A stretch of DNA of 60,796 nucleotides, taken from positions 1 through 60,796 of IMG/VR virus record IMGVR_UViG_3300033143_007105; one strand, written 5' to 3'. This document shows positions 17,905-48,765 of this stretch, piece by piece. The position numbers were made by a program, and so were the translations under genes. The stretch comes from a virus. The notes under the pieces were generated by a model that was not told the origin of the DNA, made no database searches, and worked only from the letters and a program-made list of their open reading frames with translations. Each line of letters begins with the position of its first letter. Position 1 is the stretch's first letter.

Positions 17905-18615
17905 ATGAGTAAAGCAACAGAATTATTAGAAAAGATAAGGGAATTAAAAGAATCAGTTGTTAAAGTTAGAATGATTGATGATAAAATTGCTGTTGAATCA
18001 CCTTATAATTCTGATTTTGTTAAGAAAGCAAGACAGATGCAGGGCAAATGGGATTCCAAAAATAAAGTATGGGTTTTTGATAATGAAGATAGGAGTTTAG
18101 TTTTAGATATACTTCGTTCAGTTTATGGTTATGAGGAAAGTGGTGAGTTAGTTACAGTGGAAGTAGGGGGTGATGCTCTTAAATCTGGTGATAAATACGA
18201 TCATATTGTTTTATTTGGACAGGATTTAGCAAAACGGTGGGATAGGGATAGTGAGGTTAAATTGCCAAAAAATGTAAGAGTGATTAAAGGTGATTTTGCT
18301 TCTAGTGGTGGTTCTAGGAAAAGTCCTGCTATTGGAGATATTGTTGGAGTGGTTTTAAAAGTAAAAGATGTGTCAAAGATGAAAGCAGAAGAACTTTTAA
18401 ATGAATATCCAAAAGATGTTAAAATTATTACAAAACTTGCTCCTATTATCAAAAAGAATGACTTAAAAAAAGCAGGTGTTTGGGATGATTTAATTAAGGA
18501 AATAAAATCATTATCGGATAAATATGATATTGCTTTTTCTGGTAAGATTACTATTGGTAAAATTAAACCTAAATATGTAATAGATCAGAATACTGGAAAT
18601 ATTTCATTTGAATAA
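17905..18615 (+). CDS. Class A leader protein with HARP-like domain
   Basis: 236 residues. The N-terminus is the archetypal class A leader (MSKATELLEKIRELKE, residues 1-16). Residues about 20-75 (ending in the SVYGYEE segment) carry SPYNSDFVKKARQM, then GKWDSKNKVWVF, resembling the small HARP-type domain of SMARCAL1-like proteins and many phage proteins. That domain may bind DNA structures. The rest is unassigned. It lies between the cassette and the portal. By analogy with T4 internal proteins, the leader may direct it into the head and be cut after the leader glutamate. Confidence 0.65.
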   Translation: MSKATELLEKIRELKESVVKVRMIDDKIAVESPYNSDFVKKARQMQGKWDSKNKVWVFDNEDRSLVLDILRSVYGYEESGELVTVEVGGDALKSGDKYDHIVLFGQDLAKRWDRDSEVKLPKNVRVIKGDFASSGGSRKSPAIGDIVGVVLKVKDVSKMKAEELLNEYPKDVKIITKLAPIIKKNDLKKAGVWDDLIKEIKSLSDKYDIAFSGKITIGKIKPKYVIDQNTGNISFE

Positions 18616-20393: not shown

Positions 20394-20610
20394 TAAAACA
20401 ATGAATGATATAGTTGATAAAGTAAAAGAGAATAATATAAAACTTGATAATTGTTCTAGGCATAATTTTGTTTGTGTTAGTTCAGATCAAAATACATTTA
20501 AAAGATATCAATGTTTAAATTGTGGAGGATTTGTTTCCAATTCCGATAAGACTTGGTACGAAAAAGGTTTAGAACATGGATTAAAAACAGGGGAGAATGG
20601 AGATGATTAA
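20365..20610 (+). CDS. Small Cys protein overlapping portal end
   Basis: About 81 residues. The start is uncertain (ATGs at 20353, 20362, 20365 and 20401 share the frame); 20365 is chosen as it lies closest after AGAGG. CSRHNFVCV and CLNCGG suggest a zinc site. It overlaps the portal by about 29 bases in another frame. Confidence 0.5.
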   Translation: MKKKLKEKFNKTMNDIVDKVKENNIKLDNCSRHNFVCVSSDQNTFKRYQCLNCGGFVSNSDKTWYEKGLEHGLKTGENGDD

Positions 20611-20857
20611 TACAAAAGAGATGATTGATTTTTTGGATGAAAAATCTAGTACAGACAAATGGGTTGATAAACATCTTAAGGAAATAAAGCCAAATGAAAA
20701 TGAAATTGATGATGTTACGTATGTATTGGATCTTATAAAGAAAGGTTCAGTAAGAATTTCTTTTAGTAAAAATATTGAGAAATATCGGGATATTCTTTTA
20801 AAAATTGGAAAAAAGGAAATTCCTAATTTAGTTTTTGTTGGACAAGAGACAAAATAG
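20603..20857 (+). CDS. Class B leader protein (84 aa)
   Basis: The ATG at 20603, 7 bases after GGGAG, gives the N-terminus MINTKEMIDFLDE, a class B leader; the ATG at 20597 would add two residues. The cargo is about 70 residues with no recognised domain. First of a run of such genes after the portal. Confidence 0.65.
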   Translation: MINTKEMIDFLDEKSSTDKWVDKHLKEIKPNENEIDDVTYVLDLIKKGSVRISFSKNIEKYRDILLKIGKKEIPNLVFVGQETK

Positions 20858-20906: not shown

Positions 20907-21320
20907 ATGATTAATAAATTAAAAATTATTACTTCAAGAGAAATGCTTTTATTTTTAGAAGCTAAAGATAAATATATTTTAGTAATGGAAGATGAAGATG
21001 GTATTTTAGATCTATTGAAAATTTATCTTAGTAAATACAAAGCATTAAAGGTTGAAGTTTTTTCTCAATTTAAGGAGGGTTTGTTTTTTCTTGCAGAGTA
21101 TTTTAAGAAGGTTGAATTAGTCATTGTGGATGGCATTGGTCCAGGTGATCCTAGAATTAGTCAAAAAATTTATTTATTGTGTAAAGATAAAGAAATTCCT
21201 GTTATTTATTCTACGGGTTCAAGCAGACCAAAATTTGTTGATGAAGAGGATTATTTAGGAAAACCTTTTAAGAGCAAAGATTTAATTTCATTAATAAAGA
21301 CAAAGAATATAGAGGTATAA
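20907..21320 (+). CDS. Class B leader fused to receiver-like domain
   Basis: 137 residues. The leader (ITSREMLLFLE, residues 8-18) precedes a compact receiver fold. YILVMEDED supplies acidic residues, VIVDG provides the likely phospho-acceptor D75, YSTGS the conserved Ser/Thr (T103), and GKPF the conserved lysine (K119). No output domain follows. Receiver domains normally take phosphate from histidine kinases. A phage copy with a putative head-targeting leader could titrate or mimic a host response regulator after injection; that is a hypothesis. Confidence 0.7.
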   Translation: MINKLKIITSREMLLFLEAKDKYILVMEDEDGILDLLKIYLSKYKALKVEVFSQFKEGLFFLAEYFKKVELVIVDGIGPGDPRISQKIYLLCKDKEIPVIYSTGSSRPKFVDEEDYLGKPFKSKDLISLIKTKNIEV

Positions 21321-21495: not shown

Positions 21496-21511
21496 GTTAT
21501 TGGAGAAGATG

Positions 21512-21955
21512 ATGATTACTTCAAAAGAAATGCTTTTATTTTTAGAAGGAAAGATAAAGAGTTTGCTTAACAAAGAACTTGATATAAATATAATAGGTTT
21601 CACTAAACTTAAAAAATGGAAGCTTGAAAAGAATGTTCATAATATTTATTGGCTTCAATCTCAAGATAAAAAAGATGTAAGGTTTCCGGTAATAGATGGA
21701 GAGGTTTTTGGTTTAAAAGAAAAAAGGAATACAGCTACTTTTATTATTCTCACTATTCCAGAAAATTTGAAAAACATTACTGCTAATATGAGAGGTCCAA
21801 TTATTATGGATCTTGATTCTATGTCTGCTGACCAGAGTGAAACAATAAATAAGAAAGCTGAATCTAGTTTCAAAGCTTATGATATTCTTATAAAACATTA
21901 TGAGAAACAAGGTAAAGAAGGGGAAGAAATTTTAAGGATTTTAAATAAGAAATAA
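21512..21955 (+). CDS. Class B leader protein (147 aa)
   Basis: The ATG at 21512, 6 bases after GGAG, gives MITSKEMLLFLEGK. Its first 45 bases are nearly identical to the leader DNA of the receiver gene, showing recent copying of the leader. The cargo is unassigned; a segment RGPIIMDLDSMSAD hints at an alpha/beta fold. Confidence 0.65.
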   Translation: MITSKEMLLFLEGKIKSLLNKELDINIIGFTKLKKWKLEKNVHNIYWLQSQDKKDVRFPVIDGEVFGLKEKRNTATFIILTIPENLKNITANMRGPIIMDLDSMSADQSETINKKAESSFKAYDILIKHYEKQGKEGEEILRILNKK

Positions 21956-21968
21956 GGAGATAGGTACA

Positions 21969-22346
21969 ATGTCTAAGGCAACAGAATTGTTGGAAAAGAT
22001 AAGGGAATTGAAGGAAGAAAACACTGATAATGATAAAGCTGAATTTCAGAAATATTTAGATGATTTTGAAAAAGAGTTGTCTAAAAAAGGTTTTGATAAA
22101 AATATTAAAATGGAACCAAGATACAGTTTACCAGTTGGTAATTTCAGTATTGATATTAGTAGTATCAAGTATCCGGAAACATCTGTTACAGTTTATAAAA
22201 AGGGTTGGAGTGTTAGTATTTCTCTTACACAAGGAAAAATGAGAGGTGGCCTTGTTATGGATAGGGGGGAATTTAGATCTAGGAAATTAAAAAATGTTCC
22301 CAAAATGTTGAAGCATGTATTAGATTTTGTGAAAGAAAAAATTTAA
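21969..22346 (+). CDS. Class A leader protein (125 aa)
   Basis: AAGGAG-driven. N-terminus MSKATELLEKIRELKE is identical to that of the 17905 protein, but the cargoes are unrelated. The cargo has several beta strands and no recognised domain. Confidence 0.65.
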   Translation: MSKATELLEKIRELKEENTDNDKAEFQKYLDDFEKELSKKGFDKNIKMEPRYSLPVGNFSIDISSIKYPETSVTVYKKGWSVSISLTQGKMRGGLVMDRGEFRSRKLKNVPKMLKHVLDFVKEKI

Positions 22347-22366: not shown

Positions 22367-22990
22367 ATGTCTAAAGCAAGAGAAATCTTAGAAAAAATAA
22401 AAGATTTTAAAGCTTTAATAGAAAGTAAATCTATTAATGACATAACAACCTTGGATGATTTAAAAAATATTGATTATAATAATTTAACAATCTTAAATAA
22501 GATTGTTAAATGTCAAGAAGTTGAAAGTATGATTTCTCCTAGAACTGTTGAAAAATTTTATAATATAAAAAACATACTACTGGACAAAGGTGAGGTTGTT
22601 CAAAAACACAAGGGATTATATTCATATTATTTAGTTATTAAATATAAAGGAGATCTTTTTCATAAACCAGTGAGTGAGAGTGAGTATAATTTATATAGCG
22701 TACCATCAGGTTCATTAAAAACTGGATTGAAATTTTTTCTTAGCAGTGTTAGTGGTAACACAAAAGATAAAATTGAAATAATTAAAGGGAAATTGAAAAA
22801 ATTTATTAGTTCTCATGATTCTAAGATTAAATCCATAAAAATAATACCAAGGAAGAATAAAGCTAAAAAAATGGTAAAAGAATTAGGTGATGTAGCTAAA
22901 TTAATAAAAGATGATGGTTTGGATTATGTTTTAGAATTTCCAGGAAAAATTTTTAAGAGAATAGATAAAAAACAAATAAAGATATTATAG
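22367..22990 (+). CDS. Class A leader protein (207 aa)
   Basis: Leader MSKAREILEKIKDFK. The upstream AGGAGAATAACAATATG is shared almost exactly with the next gene, so ribosome binding site and leader move as a unit. The cargo is lysine-rich and unassigned. Stops at TAG. Confidence 0.65.
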   Translation: MSKAREILEKIKDFKALIESKSINDITTLDDLKNIDYNNLTILNKIVKCQEVESMISPRTVEKFYNIKNILLDKGEVVQKHKGLYSYYLVIKYKGDLFHKPVSESEYNLYSVPSGSLKTGLKFFLSSVSGNTKDKIEIIKGKLKKFISSHDSKIKSIKIIPRKNKAKKMVKELGDVAKLIKDDGLDYVLEFPGKIFKRIDKKQIKIL

Positions 22991-23002
22991 GAGAATAACA
23001 AT

Positions 23003-23749
23003 ATGTCTAAGGCAAAAGAAATTTCAAAAAAGATACATGAATTTTGGGACGGAGATACTTCCATCATTCCAATAAAACCAAACAATGTTAAAAAAGCTTT
23101 TCAAAAAAGATTAGCATATTTTGAAATGGATGGAGTATCAGTTGATGAAGTTGATATTGATCTGGAAGGGAATATTAGGGTAACTTTCTCTGATTATGAA
23201 GATGATGTTATGGAAGTTCTTTTTGGTTATGATGAGGATAATGATGAAGGTTCCTACGCAATGATTCTTGGTGAAGATGATGATGAAGATTATTTCATTA
23301 TGGATCTTGATCCTATGAATCCAGTAATTCTTCAAACTGAACAATTTGGAAAGTATGTAAACCTTACTGATCTATCTTGGGTTAATAAAAGTATGTTTGC
23401 TTCTATGTTCTCAATTGGTGAGATTGATTTTTTCACAGAGAGTAAAGTAAGGGAAGGTTATGAAGGAAATTTATCTGATGATTTTAAGGGGTATGAGAAG
23501 ATCAAGGATGAAGCATTTAAGACAGTTGTGAGGGGAGGTAAAAAGATTAAACTTCCAGTTGTAAGAAGAAAAAGGAAAAAAGTATTAACATCAAAACAGA
23601 GAGCAGGGATTGTAAGGGCAAAGAGAAAAAGAAAAATGACTATGAAAAAAAGTTCAACAAAATTAAAAAGAGCCAAATCGTTAAAGATCAGGAAGAGGTT
23701 AGGGTTGAAGAAAAAGAGTCTTCCTAAAGGGTACAAAGTGAGAAGATGA
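23003..23749 (+). CDS. Class A leader protein with acidic core and very basic tail
   Basis: 248 residues. Leader MSKAKEISKKIHEF, then an Asp/Glu-rich region (about residues 40-110), then a C-terminal 70 residues dominated by Lys and Arg (RRKRKK, RAKRKRK, KRLGLKKKSLPKGYKVRR). A basic tail of this kind would bind packaged DNA. The charge split resembles proteins that condense or accompany DNA in capsids. Its stop overlaps the next ATG. Confidence 0.65.
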   Translation: MSKAKEISKKIHEFWDGDTSIIPIKPNNVKKAFQKRLAYFEMDGVSVDEVDIDLEGNIRVTFSDYEDDVMEVLFGYDEDNDEGSYAMILGEDDDEDYFIMDLDPMNPVILQTEQFGKYVNLTDLSWVNKSMFASMFSIGEIDFFTESKVREGYEGNLSDDFKGYEKIKDEAFKTVVRGGKKIKLPVVRRKRKKVLTSKQRAGIVRAKRKRKMTMKKSSTKLKRAKSLKIRKRLGLKKKSLPKGYKVRR

Positions 23750-24987
23750 TTACTTCAGAAGAAATGTTGGATTTCTTAGATGAAAAACAAATAGAGGAGG
23801 GACAAGTAATTTCATATAAGACTATCCTTAAATGGAAGCAAGATTTGAATACTATTATTAAAGGTATTCGGCAAACAAGATATAAGAACATCAAGGATGC
23901 TATATCAGATTATTCAAAAATAGAGAAAATGATTAATGTCTATTTTAAGAATCTTAAGGAATTCTTGGAACGTGATTTAGGTTTCATATTTGATGCAAAG
24001 GACTATCACACACTCCGGGGAATTCCAAAGATTGAGAGGATAATTGATAATTATAGAAAATTGAGAACTGCTTTTTCACAAGGTCTATCTGATCCTGAGC
24101 ATTGGATTAGTTCTTATAACTTAGATGCAGAAATAAATAAAAAACGGCTTGATAATGAGGAGGAGATTGATTGTGGAGAATATGGAATGGTTAAGGCTAT
24201 TGATTACTATGTGAATGGGAGGTATAGAGATTTTGGAAAAACACTTTCCAAACAACAACAATTTAATCCAGAAACAAGAAGGTGGGGTAAAGATAAAAGT
24301 ATTGAAGAAATAGCAGAACAGCTTTGGACAGTAATTAGGGATTGGATAAAAAAACATTCTAAAGATGGGGACAAAAAAGAATTTGATAATCCTATTACTG
24401 CTCCACTAAAGTATACATTGGGGAAATTGATATTTGTAAATTCCATGAAGCTCGGTATTGGTAGTCTCAAAAACATAATGAAAGGTATTAAACCTGCTAT
24501 TGCTAAACTAAAAAGAGTTCTTCCAGAGGTTCTTTATGGTGATGTTTATATAACTGAGAAACCGGAAAGAGAGATAACCATTAAAGTTACTGGAAGAAAA
24601 TCAGGAGTAGCAGGGATATATAATATAGCAAAGGATAATGTTAGTCTTTATTTTAAAAAGCTTTCAATGAGTGAAATTGCCTATGTTGAAAATGTATTAA
24701 TACATGAGCTTGCTCACAGGTATTATTACAAGTTTATGGACTCATCCAAAAGACAACAATGGGAGCATTTCTTTCAGGACCTAAGAAAAGAAGGAGTATC
24801 TGATTATAGTTCTCAGAACCCTGCTGAGGATTTTGCTGAAACCATGATGGATTATATTATGAAGAAAGGCCAATTGAAACAAAAGGATGCTAGAGATAGA
24901 CTTAAGGTAATATTAAAGGGAAAGAAATATTTTGAAAGTAAAGCAAAAGAAATACTATATAAAATACAGGAATTAAGGGAGATTTAA
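23746..24987 (+). CDS. Putative HExxH metallopeptidase with leaders at both ends
   Basis: 413 residues. Class B leader at the N-terminus (MITSEEMLDFLDE) and a class A motif at the extreme C-terminus (SKAKEILYKIQELREI). Residues 320-324 are HELAH, the zincin motif, and AEDFAETMMDY about 37 residues later could supply the third ligand (Glu). A zinc-dependent protease acting in the head or in the infected cell is the simplest reading. Catalysis and substrates are unknown. Confidence 0.7.
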   Translation: MITSEEMLDFLDEKQIEEGQVISYKTILKWKQDLNTIIKGIRQTRYKNIKDAISDYSKIEKMINVYFKNLKEFLERDLGFIFDAKDYHTLRGIPKIERIIDNYRKLRTAFSQGLSDPEHWISSYNLDAEINKKRLDNEEEIDCGEYGMVKAIDYYVNGRYRDFGKTLSKQQQFNPETRRWGKDKSIEEIAEQLWTVIRDWIKKHSKDGDKKEFDNPITAPLKYTLGKLIFVNSMKLGIGSLKNIMKGIKPAIAKLKRVLPEVLYGDVYITEKPEREITIKVTGRKSGVAGIYNIAKDNVSLYFKKLSMSEIAYVENVLIHELAHRYYYKFMDSSKRQQWEHFFQDLRKEGVSDYSSQNPAEDFAETMMDYIMKKGQLKQKDARDRLKVILKGKKYFESKAKEILYKIQELREI

Positions 24988-24988
24988 T

Positions 24989-26539
24989 ATGATTACTTCA
25001 AAGGAGATGTTAGATTTTCTTGAACAACAAATGTCTATAGATACTGCTTTAGATTTTCTTGATCTAACAGCAGATGATTTAGGAGATGTTGATAAAATTA
25101 AAAAAGCATACAAAAAAGCAGCAGTAAAAAATCATCCGGATCATGGTGGATCTGATGATGCTATGAAGAATGTTAATCTTGCCTATGAACTTTTAAAAGC
25201 TTCTAAGGTTTCATTTGTTAAACATGAATATGATTTTGATAAGATGAATAAGGAGTATCAAGAACTTGGAAAAAAGGTTAAAGATGAACTTGTCAATGCT
25301 TTTAGACCAGAAATATTTACAAGTTATTTTCAAGATATTTTTAAGAAGGAATTCAAAGGAGAAATCACATCTACTTTTCCCAAGGAAAGTCAAAGAAATC
25401 CTACTAATGCTGGTTTTAGTGCTGAAATATTCACTTTGGACAAGAGAATAGTTTTTAGTATATATGTGTCAGTTTATCTTGTTGATGTTAAATATGGCCA
25501 GTCTCTTGGTGGAGGTTCTGGGGGAATAGATTATACAGTGGATGTTACAGCTCATGGTTTATATGACAGAAGAAAGCAAAAGATCTCTAGGAGAGATTAT
25601 AAAAGAATATCAAACCAAGTGGTATTACTTGATCCAAAGGTTATTTTTCCAAAAGCAAAGATTACAAAAATAGTTAAAGAACCAAAAAGAAAATCTTTCA
25701 AAAGAAGGGATATGTATTTATCTCTTCAAAAAGAACTCAAAGCAAAGACTGTTGATGAATGGGTTTATATCCCTTTAAATGATAAAGGATGGGAGCTTGT
25801 TATCTTTAGAATGACTTTTCGCAGAGTTGCAGGTTGGATGATTAATGGACTATATCTGAGGACAGGTAAATTGGGTAGCAGTTCAAGAAAATATCAGCTT
25901 AAGACAAAATCTTTCCCAGAAAAGGAAGAACTTATTGAATTTATAAAAGAACTTCAAAAGAAATCAAAAAATCTTGAAGATAAAAAACTTGCTGGTATGT
26001 TAGATAAGGAAATCCAAGCAAAGGAAATAAAACATGATGAGGGGTTTAATATGAGTAGAGCAAGAGAAGTGTTAGAAAAAATAAGGGAATTAAAAGAATC
26101 CTCTTATCCAACATACAAAAAAGGAGATTGGAAAAAGAATCCTCCAGATACAATTTATTTTGATAAGGAATTTGGTGTGTGTATGGCTTATAAAGATTTT
26201 CTTTATCAACCAGGAACAGGTGGTACTATGAATTATCAAACTCCTGGAGGAAAATTCAAGTATGTTAAAGTTAAATCAGATGATGATTTTAAAAAAATGA
26301 TTGATAAGGGAGAAATCAAAGAATCTCTAACAGAAGCAAACTTTAAAACAGCAAATATGGTTGAACTTGCAAAAGATATTGAAGTTAAAGGTAGGAAGTT
26401 TTTAAAAGGAACTGTACTTGATATTCTCAAAGTTGATACTTCTCCAAAGGAAGTGATAATATCAGTGGAATCCCCCGGAGGAATAAAATTTGATTTGAAA
26501 TGTAAATCTGAAAAGGATTTTGAACATAAGTTGTTTTAA
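24989..26539 (+). CDS. Class B leader J-domain protein fused to second leader protein
   Basis: 516 residues. Leader MITSKEMLDFLEQQ, then a J-domain (about residues 22-72; HPD at 49-51, ending NLAYELLK), which normally stimulates Hsp70/DnaK ATPase. The middle is unassigned. At residue 355 a complete class A leader begins (MSRAREVLEKIRELKE), preceded by GAGGGG 7 bases before its ATG at 26051. So the last 162 residues may also be made alone. It looks like two leader genes joined in frame by loss of a stop. If the leader protease cuts internally, the fusion would release two products. Confidence 0.75.
   Translation: MITSKEMLDFLEQQMSIDTALDFLDLTADDLGDVDKIKKAYKKAAVKNHPDHGGSDDAMKNVNLAYELLKASKVSFVKHEYDFDKMNKEYQELGKKVKDELVNAFRPEIFTSYFQDIFKKEFKGEITSTFPKESQRNPTNAGFSAEIFTLDKRIVFSIYVSVYLVDVKYGQSLGGGSGGIDYTVDVTAHGLYDRRKQKISRRDYKRISNQVVLLDPKVIFPKAKITKIVKEPKRKSFKRRDMYLSLQKELKAKTVDEWVYIPLNDKGWELVIFRMTFRRVAGWMINGLYLRTGKLGSSSRKYQLKTKSFPEKEELIEFIKELQKKSKNLEDKKLAGMLDKEIQAKEIKHDEGFNMSRAREVLEKIRELKESSYPTYKKGDWKKNPPDTIYFDKEFGVCMAYKDFLYQPGTGGTMNYQTPGGKFKYVKVKSDDDFKKMIDKGEIKESLTEANFKTANMVELAKDIEVKGRKFLKGTVLDILKVDTSPKEVIISVESPGGIKFDLKCKSEKDFEHKLF
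26051..26539 (+). CDS. Internal in-frame start: class A leader protein
   Basis: Nested 162-residue product of the J-domain gene starting at its own ATG with a good ribosome binding site. The cargo has no recognised domain. Confidence 0.45.
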   Translation: MSRAREVLEKIRELKESSYPTYKKGDWKKNPPDTIYFDKEFGVCMAYKDFLYQPGTGGTMNYQTPGGKFKYVKVKSDDDFKKMIDKGEIKESLTEANFKTANMVELAKDIEVKGRKFLKGTVLDILKVDTSPKEVIISVESPGGIKFDLKCKSEKDFEHKLF

Positions 26540-26679: not shown

Positions 26680-26887
26680 AGAGGAAGAAAAGGAAAGCTT
26701 ACAAAAAAGAATTGTAAGACAGATTATCCGGATCTCTTCTCAGTATTTAATAGCAAAAGAAGAGAAAAGGAAAGTTGATCTTAATACTTCATTAGTCCTT
26801 CTTCAATCAGCTTTACAAATAACTGATGATAGACAAGCTGATAGAGTTTTAAAAACAGCGTTAAAGATAGAGAGGAAAAGAAAATGA
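26651..26887 (+). CDS. Hypothetical helical protein (78 aa)
   Basis: GTG is the only plausible start in the frame; GAGG lies about 9 bases before it. Lys/Glu-rich N-terminus, then amphipathic helices. Overlaps both neighbours. No leader. Confidence 0.45.
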   Translation: MTLKKKKVNEEEEKESLQKRIVRQIIRISSQYLIAKEEKRKVDLNTSLVLLQSALQITDDRQADRVLKTALKIERKRK

Positions 26888-27140
26888 TTAAAGCACAAGA
26901 AATGTTAAAATTTTTGGGTGAGAAAGGGCAATATAGTCCGGATATAGAGGGACTTGATTCTTTAGTGGATGATTTGGGTATGGATTTAGCCACATTAGAA
27001 TTTAAATTGTCTAAAGAATTTTCAGGGGATAAAAGGAAAAAGATTTTTATGCAAAATTTTTAAGCACTTTGATTGGTTATGCTGTAAGAATAGGGGAAAT
27101 AAAAAGTCAAATAGATAAGGATTATAAAAGGATAAAATAA
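26884..27140 (+). pseudogene. Class B leader ORF with -1 frame break
   Basis: N-terminus MIKAQEMLKFLGE is a class B leader. The zero frame stops at 27061-27063 (59 aa). A -1 shift at AAA-AAG (27037-27042) continues as KKDFYAKFLSTLIGYAVRIG and ends at 27138-27140, total 85 residues. That is the size of its siblings at 28199 and 28437, and FYAKFLSTLIG resembles FYRLLVGIM near the end of the 28199 protein. It is either a frameshifted gene or a recoded one. Confidence 0.55.
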
Positions 27141-27844: not shown

Positions 27845-28242
27845 ATAAAAATAATATTTGTAAGATTTGTGGTTATATTGGTGCTGAGGTTGGAGGTGAT
27901 ATTTCTTATCATGTTAAAAAAATCCATAAACTAAAACCACATGATTATTTTGATAAGTTTATTCTTGAAAATAAAATTCCAACTTGTATGAAACAAGGTT
28001 GTGAAATTAATTTACCTTATAGGAAAAGATATACTCCTGATTTTTATTTACCAGATTTTGATTTTTGGATAGAAGTAAAACCTTTTTGTTTTCAGGATAA
28101 TATGATGGATTTTATAATGAGTATGCAAAGATGCCATCATAAACAACTTATATATCTGGACAAAAAACAATTTGAATATTTTTTGTGGAGTTTATTAGAT
28201 GCTCAAAGCGAAGGAAATGTTGGAGTTTTTAGGAATAAATGA
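27841..28242 (+). CDS. Homing-type PD-(D/E)xK nuclease, probably shortened
   Basis: 133 residues. N-terminal Cys2-His2 finger (C7, C10, H24, H29) followed by the HDYFDKF motif, as in phage homing nucleases. Residues 66-80 carry PDFYLP...WIEVK (D67, E78, K80), a PD-(D/E)xK catalytic pattern. Compared with the relatives at 47677 and 56373 it lacks the segment containing W.YEP..F between the finger and the catalytic strand, so it may be internally deleted. Its last 44 bases overlap the next leader gene. Confidence 0.7.
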   Translation: MNKNNICKICGYIGAEVGGDISYHVKKIHKLKPHDYFDKFILENKIPTCMKQGCEINLPYRKRYTPDFYLPDFDFWIEVKPFCFQDNMMDFIMSMQRCHHKQLIYLDKKQFEYFLWSLLDAQSEGNVGVFRNK

Positions 28243-28432
28243 AACATCAGCATTGGTAAATGATTTTGCTGATAAGACAGGGAAGAGTGTTGAAGAAATT
28301 GAAAATATGTGGAAAGCAATAAAAGCAAGTTTAATAAAACAGGGCAATGATGAAGAAAGTCCTAATTTTTATAGATTACTTGTTGGGATAATGAAAAAGA
28401 ATCTAGGTTTAATAAAAAATAAGGGGAAATAA
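28199..28432 (+). CDS. Class B-like leader protein (77 aa)
   Basis: N-terminus MLKAKEMLEFLGINE is a diverged class B leader. It starts inside the nuclease gene, as if that gene was inserted just upstream. The cargo is helical. Confidence 0.6.
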   Translation: MLKAKEMLEFLGINETSALVNDFADKTGKSVEEIENMWKAIKASLIKQGNDEESPNFYRLLVGIMKKNLGLIKNKGK

Positions 28433-28436
28433 AATT

Positions 28437-28697
28437 ATGAAAACAAAAGCACAAGAAATGTTGGATTTTTTGGATGAGAAAGAGTTTCCTAAATTTGGAG
28501 ATGATGTTAAAAAAGCTTTAAAATCTTTAGTGGGGGAAACTGAAGATGATTTGGGTGTGCTTGTGAATCTTGAGGCAAGGATGGATGATGAAGATTTTGA
28601 TTCAACAAAAGAAAAAGATATTAGAAAATATTTATTAAAGTATAAAATAGATAAAAATATAATTGATAAATATATCAAAGCTTGGAAAAAGATATAA
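28437..28697 (+). CDS. Class B leader protein (86 aa)
   Basis: Leader MKTKAQEMLDFLDE. GGGGAAAT purine run upstream. Acidic, helical cargo with no family. Confidence 0.6.
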   Translation: MKTKAQEMLDFLDEKEFPKFGDDVKKALKSLVGETEDDLGVLVNLEARMDDEDFDSTKEKDIRKYLLKYKIDKNIIDKYIKAWKKI

Positions 28698-28804: not shown

Positions 28805-29176
28805 ATGAAAACTAAAGCACAGGAAATGTTGGATTTTTTGAATGAAGATAAACATGAACAAAAATTGGGTGATTCTTTAGTATTTTTTGATATTAAGGAT
28901 TTAACTTTTTTATCTAAGGATATTTTGGAAATAGAAGAAGGTTTTGCAGATACTTGGGATTCTAAATGGACACCACCTGAAGGTTTGTCAGATAAAAAAG
29001 CAGGGACAATAGCAAAAATAATAGCTGCTACTGGTAAAACATTAAAAAATGCTACTGATAAATTAAATTTTTTTATTAACAGGGCAGGTAATAAGATGGA
29101 TCCGGACAAATTGATAAAAATGAAACGTGTTCTTGATATTTTGAGTGATATGAAAAAATTTAAAAAGAAAAAATAA
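28805..29176 (+). CDS. Class B leader protein (123 aa)
   Basis: Leader MKTKAQEMLDFLNE. Expressed behind its own promoter directly ahead of the prohead protease gene. The cargo is unassigned with a basic C-terminus. Confidence 0.6.
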   Translation: MKTKAQEMLDFLNEDKHEQKLGDSLVFFDIKDLTFLSKDILEIEEGFADTWDSKWTPPEGLSDKKAGTIAKIIAATGKTLKNATDKLNFFINRAGNKMDPDKLIKMKRVLDILSDMKKFKKKK

Positions 29177-29203: not shown

Positions 29204-30580
29204 TTGGAAAATAAACCTATACCAGTACAGGATATTTTTGAACCAGATGTAAGTTTTGTTATTGAAGAAGCATCCGGTGAAGTTGATGGTATTCATATAC
29301 TTGCTAAAATCTCAGGAACCTTTTTTGTACCTGATGGAATTTCCAGAAATAAAAGGCATTATTCAGAATCTCTTTGGAAAAAACAATTAGCAAGAAAAGA
29401 AATAAAAGAACTTCTTGAGTCCAGAAGAATGTTTGGAACTATTTCCCATGAACAAGAACTTAATGATAAGGCTTTGCTTGAGGGTAAAGTTTCTCATATT
29501 ATAACTAAACTATCCATTAATGAAAAAGATGGAAAAAAACAGGGATATGGTGAAGCACTTATTCTAAATACTCCTGCTGGACAACTTTTAAATACTTATT
29601 ACCGGGCTGGATCAAAACTGTTTACATCTTCTCGCGCAGGTGGAACTTTTAAAGGCACACACTCAGGAATACCTTCTGTAGATGAAGATACTTATAGATT
29701 AAAAACATTTGATTTTATTGGTGATCCTGGTTTTTTAGAAGCTAATCCAGATCTTGTTGAAAGTTATAATGAAATTTTTAAACCTAAATTAAATGAAAAT
29801 TCCAATGAGGAGGAAAACGATATGGATAAGGAAATGACTGATCTACTTAGTAAATCAATGAATGAAAATTCTACTTTACAGGCTGATCTAAAAAATACTT
29901 TGAATGAAGTTGAAACTCTTAAGGGTAATAATACTGTACTTACAGAAGAGAATACTCACATCAAAGGTGAGATTGAAAATCTTAAAAAAATAAATGAAAA
30001 CATCAAGGTTTATGAGGAGCTTGGAAAAGCTGATGAATTAAAAGAAAAACTTGCAAAAAATGAAGAACTTTTAAAAAAGTTTGAAAATCTTGGTACTCCT
30101 GAAGCTATTGGTAAAGTTTTTGAAGAATGCAAAACAAAGGTTACAAGTTTGGAAGAGGAGCTTAACAATTTCAAAAAGATTGGAACATTTGAAGAAATTC
30201 AAAATGTTTTTGAAAAATCTAAAGAAGAGATTGGAAAGTATCGTCCCCTTGGTACACCGGAAGAAATTGAAGAAACTAATAATGAAATTGTTACTGTTAT
30301 TGATGATATGAAAAAAAGCAAGAATTCTGTTAGAATCAAAGCACTTGCAGAGGAATTAAAGATTCCAGAAGAAAAAATCGAAAAAATCTATGAGACAATG
30401 AAAGATGAAGAAGAGATCAAAGAATTTTTCAAAGATCTTTCTGAATCTTCTAAGATAAAAAAGAAATTCCAAAAAACTAATGAAGATGTAAATGGTGACA
30501 ACAAAGATGGAAATACAGAAGATGAAAATCCATTTGCAAACAAGACATCTGCTGAAAGTTTGATGGAACAATTTAACTAA
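29204..30580 (+). CDS. Prohead protease fused to scaffold
   Basis: 458 residues, TTG start after GGAG. Residues 1-200 resemble T4 gp21-type prohead (assemblin-fold) proteases: H82 in GTISHEQ, the EALILNTPAGQLL strand, and S142/S143 in LFTSSRAGG as nucleophile candidates. Residues 207-458 are a long Glu/Lys coiled coil, the expected scaffold (gp22-type). T4 encodes the two separately (212 and 269 residues). An internal start separates them here too. The protease would cut scaffold, capsid and probably the leader proteins during maturation. Confidence 0.8.
   Translation: MENKPIPVQDIFEPDVSFVIEEASGEVDGIHILAKISGTFFVPDGISRNKRHYSESLWKKQLARKEIKELLESRRMFGTISHEQELNDKALLEGKVSHIITKLSINEKDGKKQGYGEALILNTPAGQLLNTYYRAGSKLFTSSRAGGTFKGTHSGIPSVDEDTYRLKTFDFIGDPGFLEANPDLVESYNEIFKPKLNENSNEEENDMDKEMTDLLSKSMNENSTLQADLKNTLNEVETLKGNNTVLTEENTHIKGEIENLKKINENIKVYEELGKADELKEKLAKNEELLKKFENLGTPEAIGKVFEECKTKVTSLEEELNNFKKIGTFEEIQNVFEKSKEEIGKYRPLGTPEEIEETNNEIVTVIDDMKKSKNSVRIKALAEELKIPEEKIEKIYETMKDEEEIKEFFKDLSESSKIKKKFQKTNEDVNGDNKDGNTEDENPFANKTSAESLMEQFN
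29822..30580 (+). CDS. Nested scaffold protein (internal start)
   Basis: In-frame ATG at 29822 with AGGAGG at 29808-29813, the best ribosome binding site in the gene, predicts a separate 252-residue scaffold. This mirrors lambda C/Nu3 and herpesvirus UL26/UL26.5. Confidence 0.7.
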   Translation: MDKEMTDLLSKSMNENSTLQADLKNTLNEVETLKGNNTVLTEENTHIKGEIENLKKINENIKVYEELGKADELKEKLAKNEELLKKFENLGTPEAIGKVFEECKTKVTSLEEELNNFKKIGTFEEIQNVFEKSKEEIGKYRPLGTPEEIEETNNEIVTVIDDMKKSKNSVRIKALAEELKIPEEKIEKIYETMKDEEEIKEFFKDLSESSKIKKKFQKTNEDVNGDNKDGNTEDENPFANKTSAESLMEQFN

Positions 30581-33196: not shown

Positions 33197-33598
33197 ATGT
33201 CTAAAGCAAGGGAAATATTGGAAAAGATAAGGAACTTTAAAATTAATGAAGTTTTAAAATGGGGTTTTGATCTTACTGGTTTTAAAAGTGCTGAAGATTG
33301 GAAAAAGGTTCTTAAATCTGTAGGAATTTCTGATGAAGGTAAACTTACCACAGAGAAAGTATCAGGAATTGAAAATGTTTATTGGGTATGGAAAGGTAAA
33401 GGTATTACAATTTATACTGGTAATAATCCGGTTACAGGTGAATATCTTTATCCTAAGAGAAGAGAACCTGAAGTTGGTTATGCAAGTTACATTGGAATTG
33501 AGGGGAATGAAGATAAAGTTAAAAAAGTTGTTAAGACAATTAAATCACTTACAAATGATATAAAAGCTGAATCTCCAAATAAAAGGGATTTTATATAA
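33197..33598 (+). CDS. Class A leader protein (133 aa)
   Basis: Leader MSKAREILEKIRNFK behind AGGAG. The cargo is about 115 residues with a Trp-rich strand region and no recognised family. Confidence 0.65.
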   Translation: MSKAREILEKIRNFKINEVLKWGFDLTGFKSAEDWKKVLKSVGISDEGKLTTEKVSGIENVYWVWKGKGITIYTGNNPVTGEYLYPKRREPEVGYASYIGIEGNEDKVKKVVKTIKSLTNDIKAESPNKRDFI

Positions 33599-34256: not shown

Positions 34257-34475
34257 ATGAGTAAAGCAACAGAAATTTTAAAGAAGTTAAAGGAATCAAA
34301 AACAAATAAAGAAAAAATCAATGAAGATTTTATTAAAGATGTGAAAAAGATTATTGATGATTCTACTAAAATATATATCCTTCTTGATACAATAGGTGGA
34401 ATTGTTGAAGATCAAAAAATTGTTAAAATTATTTTGAAAGCAGCAAGAGATCTTGAGAAGATTGAAAAGGGATAA
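34257..34475 (+). CDS. Class A leader protein (72 aa)
   Basis: Leader MSKATEILKKLKESK after AGGAGATATATC. Short helical cargo. Confidence 0.6.
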   Translation: MSKATEILKKLKESKTNKEKINEDFIKDVKKIIDDSTKIYILLDTIGGIVEDQKIVKIILKAARDLEKIEKG

Positions 34476-34547: not shown

Positions 34548-34883
34548 ATGACTACTAAAGCACAAGGAATGTTAAAATTTTTGAATGAAGGTAAACTTAA
34601 AATTAACCTGGAATCTGCTGAAAAGATTGTAGCTTTACTTAAGAAGAATGGTTATAGTAATGCTTCTTATGATACAGAATATGGTTTTAGTGGAATATAT
34701 AACCAAAGCAGATATGCTCAGCTTACATCTGATAACAAGGGGTTTTGTTGTTCTCTGAGAGGTTGTAGTGGTCTTAATAATTTGATTATGAATTCTGCTG
34801 AAGTTAATATTTTGACTGAAGAAATAAATGAAGTGAAAAAGATCCTTGATGGAATTAGGGGTGTTGATTCAACTTTAGTATAG
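34548..34883 (+). CDS. Class B leader protein (111 aa)
   Basis: Leader MTTKAQGMLKFLNE after AGGAG. The cargo contains YSNASYDTEYGFSG and GFCCSLRGCSG segments; not assigned. Confidence 0.6.
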   Translation: MTTKAQGMLKFLNEGKLKINLESAEKIVALLKKNGYSNASYDTEYGFSGIYNQSRYAQLTSDNKGFCCSLRGCSGLNNLIMNSAEVNILTEEINEVKKILDGIRGVDSTLV

Positions 34884-34895
34884 AGGGATAAAAAT

Positions 34896-35090
34896 ATGAA
34901 AACAGCAAAAGAGATGTTGGATTTTTTGGATGAAGGTGAAGATAAGGAAGCTCTTTTCAAAAAGAAATTCAAGGAACTTGAGTATTGGGATTCAAGAAAT
35001 ACAACAACAAGTGTTCAATGTGATAATTTGAAAAGAGCCAAAGCTATTATTAAAAATTCAGGTATTGAACAGACAATAAAGGAAGTATGA
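34896..35090 (+). CDS. Class B leader protein (64 aa)
   Basis: Leader MKTAKEMLDFLDE. Short basic cargo. Stops four bases before the next gene. Confidence 0.55.
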   Translation: MKTAKEMLDFLDEGEDKEALFKKKFKELEYWDSRNTTTSVQCDNLKRAKAIIKNSGIEQTIKEV

Positions 35091-35094
35091 AAAT

Positions 35095-35526
35095 ATGAAA
35101 ACTAAAGCACAAGAAATGTTAAAATTTTTAGAAATGAGAGGACAAGGTACAGGACCAGAAGGTATGGCTGGTACATCCTTGTGTATTTGTCCTTCATGTA
35201 AGCATGAAGTTTCTCACAATAGAGGAGTTCCTTGTAATGAAATGAAATGTCCTAAATGTCAAACTCCAATGACAGGTAAAGGAACTGTTGGATCAAAAGT
35301 TGGAGATGAGAGTAAAGCACAAGAAATATTAGATAAGTTGAATAGGGTTGAAGAAAAAGTTAAAATAGGTTCTGTTGCTGCAACAATTAATGGTATTGTC
35401 AGTAAAATAGAAAAAGAAAAAATACCAGAACAAGAAAAAATTGGAAATAAAGATACTGTAAAAGCTTTAAAGGATGCAGTTAAATTTTTGGATAAAGCTA
35501 CTGATATATTATTTGATATATCTTAA
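35095..35526 (+). CDS. Class B leader protein with zinc ribbon and internal leader-like motif
   Basis: 143 residues. Leader MKTKAQEMLKFLE, then a four-cysteine ribbon (CICPSC...CNEMKCPKC, about residues 26-58), then SKAQEILDKLNRVEEK, which resembles a class A leader in the middle of the protein, then a helical tail. It may be a second case of two leader proteins fused, or a protein with an internal processing site. Confidence 0.6.
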   Translation: MKTKAQEMLKFLEMRGQGTGPEGMAGTSLCICPSCKHEVSHNRGVPCNEMKCPKCQTPMTGKGTVGSKVGDESKAQEILDKLNRVEEKVKIGSVAATINGIVSKIEKEKIPEQEKIGNKDTVKALKDAVKFLDKATDILFDIS

Positions 35527-35933: not shown

Positions 35934-36320
35934 ATGATTAATACAAAAGAAATGTTGGATTTTTTGAATGAGGGTAAACATCCAATGCTTGATGATTATT
36001 TAGTTTCTGCATTATGGTCTTCCAGTGATGATGAGGGTAATCCTTTAGATGATGATTATGATGTTTCTGATGTAAGTAAAGAAGCAATTAAGAAATCTGA
36101 AAAAGATTTAAAAGATTTTGAGAAAAAGGCTGGAAAGTTATTAGATGGATTAGATCCAAAACAAATAGCACATGATTTTTGGTTGACTAGAAATGGTCAT
36201 GGTGCAGGTTTTTTGGATAGGGATTATGATGGTAAGGAAAAGAAGTTGGATAAAATTGCGAGTTCTTTTGGTAGTGTGATGGCTTATGTTGGGGATGATA
36301 AAAAGATTTATATGGATTAA
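35934..36320 (+). CDS. Class B leader protein (128 aa)
   Basis: Leader MINTKEMLDFLNE. The cargo is very acidic with a Gly-rich segment HGAGFLDRDYDGKEK. Last leader gene before the tail module. Not assigned. Confidence 0.6.
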   Translation: MINTKEMLDFLNEGKHPMLDDYLVSALWSSSDDEGNPLDDDYDVSDVSKEAIKKSEKDLKDFEKKAGKLLDGLDPKQIAHDFWLTRNGHGAGFLDRDYDGKEKKLDKIASSFGSVMAYVGDDKKIYMD

Positions 36321-44485: not shown

Positions 44486-44833
44486 ATGAGTCAATTTTTT
44501 ATAAATTTAGATTTAGAGACTGAAAAAAGATTTGATATGTCTAAATTTTTGGAATTTACTGATAATTATGATTCTTTAACTTCAAAATTTTTACTTGATC
44601 TTAAAAAACTAAAACCGATATTTACTTTTGTTATTACTCATGAAGAGAAAAAACCTGATCTAATTAGTCAATTAATTTATGGAGATACTCAATATTGGTG
44701 GATTATTTTATATTATAATGACATTACTGAAATTGATGAATTGGTATCTGGGAAAATTCTCCAATATCCAAGTTTAGAGGATTTGGAAGATTTGTATTTT
44801 TCACTAAGATCCGAAGAGGTAGCTACAGAATAA
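44486..44833 (+). CDS. Baseplate wedge protein, gp53-like
   Basis: 115 residues. KPDLISQLIYGDTQYWWIILYYN and later a LQYPSLEDLE segment match the gp53/LysM-like wedge core. Shorter than T4 gp53 (196). TAATG overlap with the hub gene. Confidence 0.8.
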   Translation: MSQFFINLDLETEKRFDMSKFLEFTDNYDSLTSKFLLDLKKLKPIFTFVITHEEKKPDLISQLIYGDTQYWWIILYYNDITEIDELVSGKILQYPSLEDLEDLYFSLRSEEVATE

Positions 44834-45966
44834 TGATTGGATTAGAAAATCAATATTTATTTAAGTTTAGTATTGCAGACAAACATGATTTTATTCAAGA
44901 AGGTGATTTAACTCTTTTTAAGATTGTTGAAGAAGCTGGAAATACATTACCAAAATTTGAACTCATCTTCTCCACTCAAGATGAAAAGGTTTTTGGTTGT
45001 CTAAATGAAGGAAATGTTCTTAAAATATCTTATGGTAAAGATAAAAATGATTTAATAGATAGTTCATTAATAATTGCAAGTAGTAATGGAGCTAGAAGTG
45101 GTCAAAAGAAAAGGCAAATAAGGTTAGTTGGGTTGTTAGCAAAAACAGGTTATATTTCTGATACCAAAAAGAAGATTACAGATAAGATCTCAGGAATAGA
45201 AGCTCTGAAAGAAACTGTTGAACCTTATTTTAAAACTGATTTCAATATAGAAAAATCTAATGATTCTCAGTATTGGATACAACCAAACACTACAGATAAA
45301 ATGTTTGTAAATGATTGTTGGTTACATAGCAATCTAAATAAATCTTTTCCTGTTTGTGGAATTACAATGGATGGTATATTTATTCTAAAGGATCTCAAAA
45401 AGGATTTAAAGAATAAATTTAAATGGAGATTCATTTCTACTCCGTCAGCTTCCAATGACATTAGATATGATGAAGATTTCGGTATTGATATAAATTCAGG
45501 TTTTCTAAACAATCTTATTGGTTATGGGAGGGAAAAATTAATTTATAATTTTGAGGAAGGTACAGAAGAATATAAAGTAGAAGAAATGACTTCTATTCTT
45601 GCTCTTACAAAGAAATTGGGGAGAAGAAAAGATGCAATAAATAGATTTTCCTCAATTGGTATACATAATGAGAATAAGCATGAAAATTATGAAAATACTT
45701 ATCTTAAAAACCTAACACATCTTGCCATGTTTGGTAGTTTAAAAATTTCAGTATCATTCCAGAATAATTTTGTTCCAATAAAAATATTGGATTCTGTAAT
45801 GTTTAAAGATGATGATGTTAATGAGAACAATAATGCTTCTTCTGAATATCATTCAGGATTATATTATGTTGGATTGGTGGCAAGAATACTACAACATAAA
45901 CAATTTGTAACTACAGTCCATTTAGGTAGAGAATCTTTGAATCAATTAAAAGGAGATTTAAAATAA
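44833..45966 (+). CDS. Baseplate hub protein, gp27/gpD-like
   Basis: 377 residues (T4 gp27, 391). Central hub trimer linking tube and spike. The succession of hub-type strands (NTLPKFELIFSTQDEKVFGCL, then NVLKISYG) and a C-terminal ISVSFQNNFVPIKILDSV fit this group, and the spike gene follows after one inserted gene. Confidence 0.75.
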   Translation: MIGLENQYLFKFSIADKHDFIQEGDLTLFKIVEEAGNTLPKFELIFSTQDEKVFGCLNEGNVLKISYGKDKNDLIDSSLIIASSNGARSGQKKRQIRLVGLLAKTGYISDTKKKITDKISGIEALKETVEPYFKTDFNIEKSNDSQYWIQPNTTDKMFVNDCWLHSNLNKSFPVCGITMDGIFILKDLKKDLKNKFKWRFISTPSASNDIRYDEDFGIDINSGFLNNLIGYGREKLIYNFEEGTEEYKVEEMTSILALTKKLGRRKDAINRFSSIGIHNENKHENYENTYLKNLTHLAMFGSLKISVSFQNNFVPIKILDSVMFKDDDVNENNNASSEYHSGLYYVGLVARILQHKQFVTTVHLGRESLNQLKGDLK

Positions 45967-45967
45967 T

Positions 45968-46462
45968 ATGATTACTTCAAATGAGATGTTAATTTTTTTG
46001 AATGAAGGTAAAAATATAGCTAAAATTATTATCCATAAATTTTTATTTAATACACAATTACCGGAGGCTAATTTTTTAAGGAAAGTAGTTCATGAAGAGA
46101 TATTGAAAGGAAAAATAGATCAATCTTTTATAAAGAAGAATAGGATTGCTAAAATATCTTTTGTTGATGAAAATTTAGATAAATATATAGAAGATACTTA
46201 TAATATTAATATTAATGATTTAAAAAAAGATATAATAAAAATTTATGAAAAAAACCAAAAAAAATTAAAAAAAGAATTTCCTGAAAAAATAAAACTGTAC
46301 AGAGGATCTCAAAGTAAAATTGATGATACAATATCTTTTTGGACAACAAAAGAATCTGTTGCTAAAACTTTTGGTGGTATAGTAAGTATGATACTTACTT
46401 GTTATAAAATTAATAAAGAGATGGTAAAAGAACATGAAGAATATTTGGTTATATCTAAATAA
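45968..46462 (+). CDS. Class B leader ADP-ribosyltransferase-like protein
   Basis: 164 residues. Leader MITSNEMLIFLNE. The C-terminal half matches the R-S-E class of ADP-ribosyltransferases: KLYRGSQ (R112), SFWTTKESVAKTFGG (Ser/Thr motif) and EHEEYLVI (E157/E158). T4 packages the ADP-ribosyltransferase Alt in its head through an N-terminal targeting sequence and injects it to modify host RNA polymerase. This gene sits between hub and spike genes, away from the other leader genes. Activity and target are inferred. Confidence 0.7.
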   Translation: MITSNEMLIFLNEGKNIAKIIIHKFLFNTQLPEANFLRKVVHEEILKGKIDQSFIKKNRIAKISFVDENLDKYIEDTYNININDLKKDIIKIYEKNQKKLKKEFPEKIKLYRGSQSKIDDTISFWTTKESVAKTFGGIVSMILTCYKINKEMVKEHEEYLVISK

Positions 46463-46490
46463 ATAGGAGTATCTTATTTTTATAAAATTG

Positions 46491-47612
46491 ATGGAATTTT
46501 TAAAAAAGGAAGCAAATCTCAATGTCCCATACCGGGGGATAGTTGTAGTAAATGATGATCCTAGAGAAATTGGAAGAGTTAAATGTATTATTCAGGGACT
46601 TATGGAAGAAACAGATTATAACAAGCTTCCCTGGTTAGGAAGAAAATCTTCTGCTTTTCCCTTATTTTATGTTCCTGAGATTAATTCTGAATTAGAGATC
46701 CAATTTCCTTTTAATGGTGATACCTATTCAGGACAATATACAGGGTGTTGGGAATCAGATACTACACATCAAGGTATTTTTAATGAAGATTATCCTGAAT
46801 CCTATGGTTTTCGAGATTCACAAAATACTTATTTTAAAGTTAATAAAAAGAAAAAATACATGGAGTTGCATCATACTTCAGGTTCAAGTTTAAAATTTTT
46901 AAGTCAGGGAGAAATAGAATTAAGAGGAAAGAAATATATAAAATTTATATCCGAGGATGGAAAAACTGAAATTAATTTTGATATGAATACTGGAGCAATT
47001 AATTTAAATCCAAAAGAAGGGGTAACAACAGGAGGATCACAAACATTTATTAATTCTAAGAAATTAAAAATTGATGTTTCCAGTAAAGATGAAAGGATTA
47101 AGGGTTCCTCTGAATCAAACATAGGTGGGGGGAGAAAAGTAAAAATTGGAGGAGGGGATTCATTATCAGTTGTTGGTAATAGAGCTATTTCTACAGGGGG
47201 GGATAAATCTGAACTTATTGCAGGAGAAACAGAAATTACTTATGGTTCAGGGCAAAAAGAACAAGTTGTTCTAGGTGATCTTGTAAGAGAGATAATTAAA
47301 GGGAATTTTAAAGTTGATATTGTGGCAGGGAATATTATATTAAAAACTACTTTGGGTGATTTAAATATAGGAAACTCAATGGCAGGGATTGGTATTTCAA
47401 AAATAGGTAGTATTGATATGGAATCAATGATGAGTACAAATATCAAGGCTTCTATGAACGCTACTGTTCAAGCTTCTATTGTAGCTACTTTAAAGGGTGC
47501 ATTGACAAAGATAGGACCAGGAATGTTTCCGAATGTAACAATAGGATCAGATCCTATTGAAGATTTTGTGACGGGAAAAATCAAAGTTGGACAATGTTCT
47601 GTACTTTCATAA
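46491..47612 (+). CDS. Baseplate spike protein, gp5/gpV-like
   Basis: 374 residues. N-terminal OB-fold (YRGIVVVNDDPREIGRVKC, then PEINSELEIQF) and C-terminal triple-beta-helix with short repeats (IGGGRKVKIGGGDSLSVVGN). No lysozyme domain (T4 gp5 has one). Forms the membrane-piercing tip. The ATG at 46491 is chosen over TTG at 46488; both lack a close ribosome binding site. Confidence 0.85.
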   Translation: MEFLKKEANLNVPYRGIVVVNDDPREIGRVKCIIQGLMEETDYNKLPWLGRKSSAFPLFYVPEINSELEIQFPFNGDTYSGQYTGCWESDTTHQGIFNEDYPESYGFRDSQNTYFKVNKKKKYMELHHTSGSSLKFLSQGEIELRGKKYIKFISEDGKTEINFDMNTGAINLNPKEGVTTGGSQTFINSKKLKIDVSSKDERIKGSSESNIGGGRKVKIGGGDSLSVVGNRAISTGGDKSELIAGETEITYGSGQKEQVVLGDLVREIIKGNFKVDIVAGNIILKTTLGDLNIGNSMAGIGISKIGSIDMESMMSTNIKASMNATVQASIVATLKGALTKIGPGMFPNVTIGSDPIEDFVTGKIKVGQCSVLS

Positions 47613-47676
47613 TATTGACTTTTTTGGAAAGGTGTAGTAGATGCATACTTATAAAACAATTATTTTAGGAGTTTTT

Positions 47677-48765
47677 ATGAGTATTCTTATTTGTCAGATT
47701 TGTAGTAAAGAGTGTAAAAATTTAATGAGACATATTCAACAACATGGAATTTCCAAGAAAGATTATTATGATAAATATTTGAAAAAACCAAAAGAGGGTA
47801 TTTGTAAAAGGTGTGGAAAAGAGACAAAATGGAATGATAGAAAAACTATATATACAATTTATTGTTCTAAAGCTTGTGGCATTGCTTCCAGAAATGAAAT
47901 TTATTGGCAAAATCCAGAAAATAAACAAAAACAAAAAGAATTTTTTAAAACAAAAGAATACATAAATAAACACAAAGAGGGGTTGAAAAACTATCATTCC
48001 AATCCTGAGAATAAAAAAGCTTTTTCTCAAAGTTTAAAAAATAGTTGGAAAGATGAAGGAAGAAAAGAAGAAATTAAGGAGAGAATGATAAAACGTCATA
48101 AGGATAATCCTGAAATTGGAAAAAAACTTTCTATTGATACAAGTAAGAGGAACAGAGAAAATTGGAAAAAACCTGAGTACCGAGAAAGAATGACAAAAAT
48201 TTTTAATGAAACTCAAGCTAAGTTAAAATCTGATCCTGGATATGTGAAAAATCAAAAAGAACGAGCAAGTAGACATATGAAAAATTTTTGGGAGAATGAG
48301 AATTTTAAAGAAGAAAGGGAGAAAAGACTTAAAAATTATTATAAAGGGATAAAAAATTATTGGGATAAGGATGATAGTATTGAAAAAGCATCATTAAAAG
48401 CAGTTTCACAGAATAAAGATCCAAAAAATAAATTTGGTAATAGAATGTTGAGAAAAGATTATATTTATAAAAATATTCAAATGAAATCTATATATGAAAT
48501 TGTCTTTGCAAAATTGTGTAACAAAAATAAGATAGAATGGCTATATGAACCTAGAACTTTTCAGATAAATTTATCTTATAGGAAAAGATATACTCCTGAT
48601 TTTTATTTAACTGAATTAGATTTATGGATTGAGATTAAATTAAAAACTTATAAAACTAAAAAAATACTGGAATTAAAACATAAATTTAAAGAAATTACTA
48701 ACAATGATTTAATAGTTATTCCAAGTAATAGGATAACTAATTTTTTTGAACATTTAATAGGTTAA
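47677..48765 (+). CDS. Homing-type nuclease with helical repeats
   Basis: 362 residues from ATG 47677, which follows AGGAG; an upstream in-frame ATG at 47641 would add 12. Order: Cys-His finger with KDYYDKYLKK, second CKRCGK...CSKACG finger, then a long basic helical region with NUMOD-like repeats (about residues 90-225). Last comes a PD-(D/E)xK core, SYRKRYTPDFYL then LWIEIK. Its catalytic-site DNA is identical over 35 bp to that of the 27841 gene. Likely a free-standing homing endonuclease parasitic on the tail operon. Confidence 0.8.
   Translation: MSILICQICSKECKNLMRHIQQHGISKKDYYDKYLKKPKEGICKRCGKETKWNDRKTIYTIYCSKACGIASRNEIYWQNPENKQKQKEFFKTKEYINKHKEGLKNYHSNPENKKAFSQSLKNSWKDEGRKEEIKERMIKRHKDNPEIGKKLSIDTSKRNRENWKKPEYRERMTKIFNETQAKLKSDPGYVKNQKERASRHMKNFWENENFKEEREKRLKNYYKGIKNYWDKDDSIEKASLKAVSQNKDPKNKFGNRMLRKDYIYKNIQMKSIYEIVFAKLCNKNKIEWLYEPRTFQINLSYRKRYTPDFYLTELDLWIEIKLKTYKTKKILELKHKFKEITNNDLIVIPSNRITNFFEHLIG

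Follow-up and report, generated by a model that had tools for sequence, protein, structure and literature searches.

The window analysed here, a stretch of 60,796 nucleotides of viral DNA, belongs to a T4-like contractile phage. This phage encodes a head maturation protease, a major head protein and baseplate genes, and its tail sheath is distantly related to those of Vibrio phage GR11A, Rhizobium phage TM30, Thermus phage phiLo and E. coli phage IME392. Between two baseplate genes lies an ORF whose product, P0001, joins a short N-terminal leader to a C-terminal domain of predicted ADP-ribosyltransferase (ART) type (Table 1). The ORF begins one base past the stop of the preceding gene, with AAGGAG 12 bases 5' of it, and an open frame of at least 150 codons was obtained in none of 2000 shuffles of its own bases. 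The sequence-only reading had described an ORF with a class B leader inside the baseplate operon; the ORF, the leader and the three motifs quoted for it, LYRG (residues 110-113), SFWTTKES (123-130) and EHEEYLVI (155-162), were all confirmed.

Table 1. Features of the window, in order of position.
Feature	Position	Strand	Basis or remarks
Class A leader ORF, leader MSKATELLEKIRE	17905..18615	+	shared start, LxE list
Class B leader ORF, leader at 20603	20597..20857	+	PSSM, LxE list
Class B leader ORF, response-regulator receiver-like (below Pfam cut-off)	20907..21320	+	PSSM, domain search
Class B leader ORF, FliW domain	21500..21955	+	PSSM; Pfam FliW 4.6e-16
Class A leader ORF	21969..22346	+	shared start, LxE list
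Class A leader ORF	22367..22990	+	shared start, LxE list
Class A leader ORF	23003..23749	+	LxE list
Class B leader ORF, SprT/metallopeptidase-like; class A-like tag KAKEILYKIQELREI at C-terminus	23746..24987	+	PSSM, domain search
Class B leader ORF, DnaJ domain	24989..26539	+	PSSM, domain search
Class B leader ORF	26884..27063	+	PSSM, LxE list
Class B leader ORF	28199..28432	+	PSSM, LxE list
Class B leader ORF	28437..28697	+	PSSM, LxE list
Class B leader ORF	28805..29176	+	PSSM, LxE list
Head maturation protease, presumed leader-cleaving enzyme	29204..30580	+	phrog_207, E=4e-26
Class A leader ORF	33197..33598	+	shared start, LxE list
Class A leader ORF	34257..34475	+	shared start, LxE list
Class B leader ORF	34548..34883	+	PSSM, LxE list
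Class B leader ORF	34896..35090	+	PSSM, LxE list
Class B leader ORF	35095..35526	+	PSSM, LxE list
Class B leader ORF	35934..36320	+	PSSM, LxE list
Upstream conserved baseplate hub-like gene	44833..45966	+	phrog_25710; synteny in 30 loci
Shine-Dalgarno-like AAGGAG	45950..45955	+	sequence; within 3' end of upstream hub gene
CDS, leader-tagged ART-like protein (P0001)	45968..46462	+	ATG start, 164 aa
Class B leader MITSNEMLIFLNE, 13 aa	45968..46006	+	PSSM rank 14/62,185; [LI]xE prohead-protease-type motif LNE at residues 11-13
Putative ART-like core, residues 105-164, PHROG 4776 family	46280..46459	+	profile and hhalign matches
Arg112 of LYRG, predicted NAD-binding Arg on strand 1	46301..46303	+	YRG invariant in family alignments A7, A8
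SFWTT, Ser123-Thr127	46334..46348	+	counterpart of family SW[TS]T and T4 ModB SFTT; Ser one residue out of register
Glu155-His-Glu157, predicted catalytic ExE	46430..46438	+	family alignments
Downstream gp5-like baseplate hub gene	46488..47612	+	phrog_430; synteny

The leader of P0001 was left out of a PSSM that was trained on the 13 other class B leaders. Scored over all six-frame windows, it reached 23.1 bits and came directly behind the 13 training leaders (28.7-38.3 bits), the next windows scoring 16.1 and then 8.9. All 14 class B leaders are starts of forward-strand ORFs. The class A leader, with consensus MSKAxE[IL]LEKI, begins six more ORFs, which brings the tagged total to about 20. 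Apart from the gene of P0001, all of these are grouped about the head genes, from 17.9 to 36.3 kb. The tag is common to otherwise unrelated folds, as FliW, receiver, DnaJ and SprT/metallopeptidase-like bodies are recognisable behind it. An [LI]xE motif occurs within the first 16 residues in 16 of the 20 leader ORFs vs 14 of 59 other ORFs (P 1e-5, an optimistic value since the leaders are interrelated); by class, it was found in 10 of 14 class B leaders, four being without it, and in 6 of 6 class A leaders. The strict class B pattern has no wide distribution in IMG/VR, where only two of 38 matches, in L139 and L166, resemble an N-terminal tag.

Several further observations concern these leaders. 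The two IMG/VR contigs have a common ORF start, MEMLEFLNEG (L139:2705 and L166:7785). An internal leader-like stretch, KAQEILDKLNR at 35314 inside ORF 35095-35526, is the top non-N-terminal match in the window (16.1 bits). The metallopeptidase-like protein is tagged at both termini, which recalls Alt, a protein processed at both ends. In bacteria, the partners of FliW are CsrA and flagellin; because FliW binds CsrA, the product of ORF 21500-21955 could, once injected, regulate the CsrA of the host.

The C-terminal part of P0001 is, by sequence, a divergent member of PHROG 4776, an unannotated phage and plasmid family with the signature YRG...SW[TS]T...A..F...ExE. Among 38,880 PHROGs, phrog_4776 was the best match of the protein (E=0.0036, residues 67-135). 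Searches with the whole protein found no homologue in IMG/VR, GTDB genomes, phages or plasmids, and Pfam and NCBIfam gave no match above cut-off; only the C-terminal 61 residues (104-164) reached ORF1 of Pseudomonas phage PfAC05 (LYRG...SWTTKESVAHKFA...EPEFEV), with a database E of 4 and a pairwise E of 4e-6. PfAC05 led on to plasmid proteins (best E=2e-16) and to seven more IMG/VR loci. Typical members of this chain score as phrog_4776 (L111, 2e-71; L114, 1e-76; L109, 1e-68), in agreement with the independent first match. When 11,603 ORFs were ranked by a family profile built without P0001, this protein came out on top (E=1.2e-4, or 0.0011 when PfAC05 was also left out), and its score was reached by none of 5000 shuffles. 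With hhalign and the family profile, P0001 was again first, of 291 ORFs (P=1.7e-6, score 39.4 vs 21.7 for the next). It shares with the family the order of YRG, W[TS]T, A..F and ExE, and differs from it by its divergence, its SFWTT, its extra leader and an unrelated N-terminal region. No phrog_4776 was found on the contigs of the 50 relatives searched. Matches to interleukin-1 alpha obtained with phmmer in the PDB were due to chance, and a second weak phage match, Aeromonas TS9 (H52), was dropped for its in-frame stops. A PHROG 4776-type domain was also seen in a large pentapeptide-repeat protein (L126:1373-2968) flanked by two multidomain phage proteins, an arrangement with the look of a polyvalent effector.

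In all likelihood the PHROG 4776 family is ART-like, as judged from its sequences and from predicted topology. A profile of five family sequences, P0001 included, had a single PDB match, the NAD-arginine ADP-ribosyltransferase Vis (E=0.19), and the alignment was in register, with SWT on STS and ExE on ExE. Enlarged to 10 rows, the profile no longer matched Vis in the PDB and gave four weak PDB matches instead, two of which, 5urp (Toxin 2A) and 2kxi, we take to be ARTs. The AlphaFold model of family member L111, built on a nine-row alignment, was confident over residues 57-220, with core pLDDT of about 70-94. The model shows a strand at 157-165 (Arg162), a strand at 174-176 (Ser174), a helix at 179-187 and strands at 193-201, 205-209 and 216-219 (Glu216). 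This puts Arg on strand 1, Ser on strand 2 and Glu on strand 5, the arrangement of R-S-E ADP-ribosyltransferases, and ExE opens strand 5. Structure prediction, as run on L111, supported an R-S-E-like topology in this way, but Foldseek with the family model gave no significant ART match, or any other, in the PDB, KptA and PARP1 being listed weakly. Against viral models it returned two significant matches, both uncharacterised, followed by large polyvalent proteins with non-significant E-values. The AlphaFold model of P0001 itself, made from a single sequence, was unusable (pLDDT 46).

The R-S-E type fold proposed for P0001 was supported as an ART-like family assignment by the profiles and by the strand order and residue placement in L111; the full triad was not. 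The three motifs fall on conserved family columns, except that the Ser column is occupied by Phe124, Ser123 standing one residue earlier. Also, relatives have about six more residues in the ARTT loop before ExE, and the core from Arg to Glu spans 45 residues vs 54 in L111. Arg112 and Glu155/Glu157 are kept. Among the homologues, YRG is invariant in both alignments, ExE is found in the family and the Ser of SW[TS]T in most members, but the plasmid homologue L107 has AWST and lacks this Ser.

An Alt-like activity had also been put forward; this kinship is not specific: PHROG 4776 is the family closest to P0001, and the part of the core that can be aligned is larger for ModB than for Alt. In the hhalign comparison, T4 Alt ranked second, at the catalytic Arg, ModB seventh and ModA 21st, and the alignments of ModB and ModA to the family profile were in motif register. 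Alt, an enzyme of R-S-E type, resembles P0001 in the region of its catalytic Arg, where only 14-15 columns of its ART domain align. It differs in length (682 vs 164 aa) and in its propeptide, MELITE, which is unlike the class B leader. By these alignments, P0001 is not an Alt homologue. ModB and ModA present LYRG...SFTT...A..F...EQE in register with P0001, but have no such leader and show low sequence similarity to it. Both are made in the cell and are not packed.

For the leader, the closest parallel is found in the T4 internal proteins IPI-III: both here and there, unrelated proteins bear a short N-terminal tag that opens with M-[KI]-T-x-x-E-[FM] and closes with IxE/LxE. The T4 capsid-targeting sequence MKTYQEFIAE resembles the class B leader MKTAKEMLDFLDE. 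Prohead protease gp21 cuts after [LI]xE, consistent with the LIE example in PMC9026906. Like the T4-type sequences, the tag described here is carried by unrelated proteins and includes [LI]xE, in a genome with a phrog_207 head protease. It differs in that about 20 proteins are tagged, in two tag classes, with a tag of 13 residues and bodies of several enzyme and regulator folds. In T4, the internal proteins enter the prohead via a 10-residue N-terminal capsid-targeting sequence removed by gp21, and Alt is a packaged ART whose N-terminal propeptide is taken off by the head protease (PMC9026906).

The two genes that flank the ORF, one hub-like and one gp5-like, adjoin each other in 22 of 30 related loci, these being the loci in which both genes could be located (alignment gap of 15-70 bases). 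Exceptions hold inserted genes, namely an endonuclease-like ORF in L065 and a 294-aa ORF in L026, L027 and L070. In L042/L043, two ORFs with the starts MIKAPDVLALFEKK and MTKATEILSLFEKE occupy exactly the same site; they are leader-tagged ORFs of a different phage. As the flanking genes abut in most of these loci, the gene of P0001 is a cassette in a conserved operon, and it probably entered there as cargo. Elsewhere in the window, a large protein of the baseplate region (51209-55780) contains numerous tandem repeats of a unit resembling NEIQKISFD..GNWKLKFDTETT...IKTALE, and three ORFs (27841-28242, 47641-48765 and 56373-56798) have similar Cys-rich starts (ICKICG...HGISKKDYYDKYLKK) and are possibly free-standing insertions of endonuclease type.

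The idea of tagged effectors gained support from G032, a relative by its tail sheath (loci L092 and L093), which puts its own leader on three proteins that have both YRG and SWT. All three begin with MEY[VI]NI, the shared start of that phage; two match the family profile (E=3e-4 and 0.002), and the third, which is paralogous and 49% identical to the first, has a weaker score. This phage also puts similar tags on a NUDIX protein and on an NAD-dependent DNA ligase, which suggests an NAD-centred set of cargo. Two shared starts proper to G032 (MEYVNI... and IPASVA...NI[EN]S) are distributed over its ART-like, NUDIX and ligase proteins. In G006, the leader-like start MTSRAAQVLERV stands on a zeta-toxin-like kinase (L100:1587-2315), and shared starts such as MSKAKKLLELIE were found in other relatives. 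The tagged genes of relatives likewise cluster near head genes. Thus, tag sequences vary by phage while the tag-plus-effector design recurs.

As a leader common to about 20 unrelated proteins is joined in P0001 to an ART-type domain, the protein is probably cargo for host takeover, injected as T4 does with Alt. On balance, we favour a virion-packaged, injected effector of mono-ADP-ribosyltransferase type, for which we infer packaging, cleavage, injection, NAD chemistry and target as follows. The 13-residue leader would act like a T4 capsid-targeting sequence and bring the protein into the prohead core, where the head-maturation protease would clip it after LNE. The freed ART-like domain would be ejected along with the DNA and, early in infection, would modify a host macromolecule using NAD. 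Packaging in the head is favoured because the leaders resemble the T4 tag, because [LI]xE is enriched in them and because ARTs, which are enriched in myophages, are often near head genes (PMC9503650). The location of this gene, in the baseplate and not the head region, counts against it. Such a position between two baseplate genes, together with the pair of tagged ORFs that one relative has in this place, would suit a leader that docks its protein in another virion compartment (tail tube, tape or baseplate), the ART being delivered through the tail. However, the other tagged genes of the window surround the head protease and capsid genes, those of relatives are also near head genes and the leader motif fits a head-protease site, and we consider docking in the tail distinctly unlikely.

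Catalysis by P0001 is uncertain because of its shifted Ser and its short ARTT segment. The domain might be a pseudoenzyme that keeps the family shape for ligand or partner binding only, and the AWST of L107 also points that way. Against this, the Arg and ExE are kept, the active T4 enzyme ModB has SFTT, and Glu, rather than Ser, has been described as essential to NAD cleavage (PMC7827354). The SFTT of ModB and the AWST of the plasmid protein indicate therefore that the Ser position tolerates change, and we regard a non-catalytic role as unlikely. It would be a very unlikely outcome that the leaders have no targeting role, being relics of gene duplication or translation-enhancing starts, and that the ART takes effect late, inside the producing cell, or targets superinfecting phages: the same tag is common to folds as unrelated as FliW, receiver, DnaJ and metallopeptidase, and different relatives put different tags on comparable cargo.

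Beyond this locus, we give about even weight to the view that an open cargo system is at work in a clade of T4-like myophages, whereby phage-specific N-terminal tags, often of two classes per phage, make the product of almost any gene head-packaged and injected, with cassettes at recurrent sites between structural genes and a cargo of ARTs (P0001 being one), NUDIX, NAD-dependent ligase, FliW, receiver, DnaJ, metallopeptidase and zeta-toxin-like kinase proteins. Should the tag be a capsid-targeting sequence, the first 13 residues could serve to recognise injected effectors in phage genomes, even those with an enzyme domain too diverged for Pfam. PHROG 4776, now of 'unknown function', would gain an assignment of ADP-ribosyltransferase type, the packaging question would become directly testable, and the strategy of T4 Alt would be extended to a large uncultivated clade.
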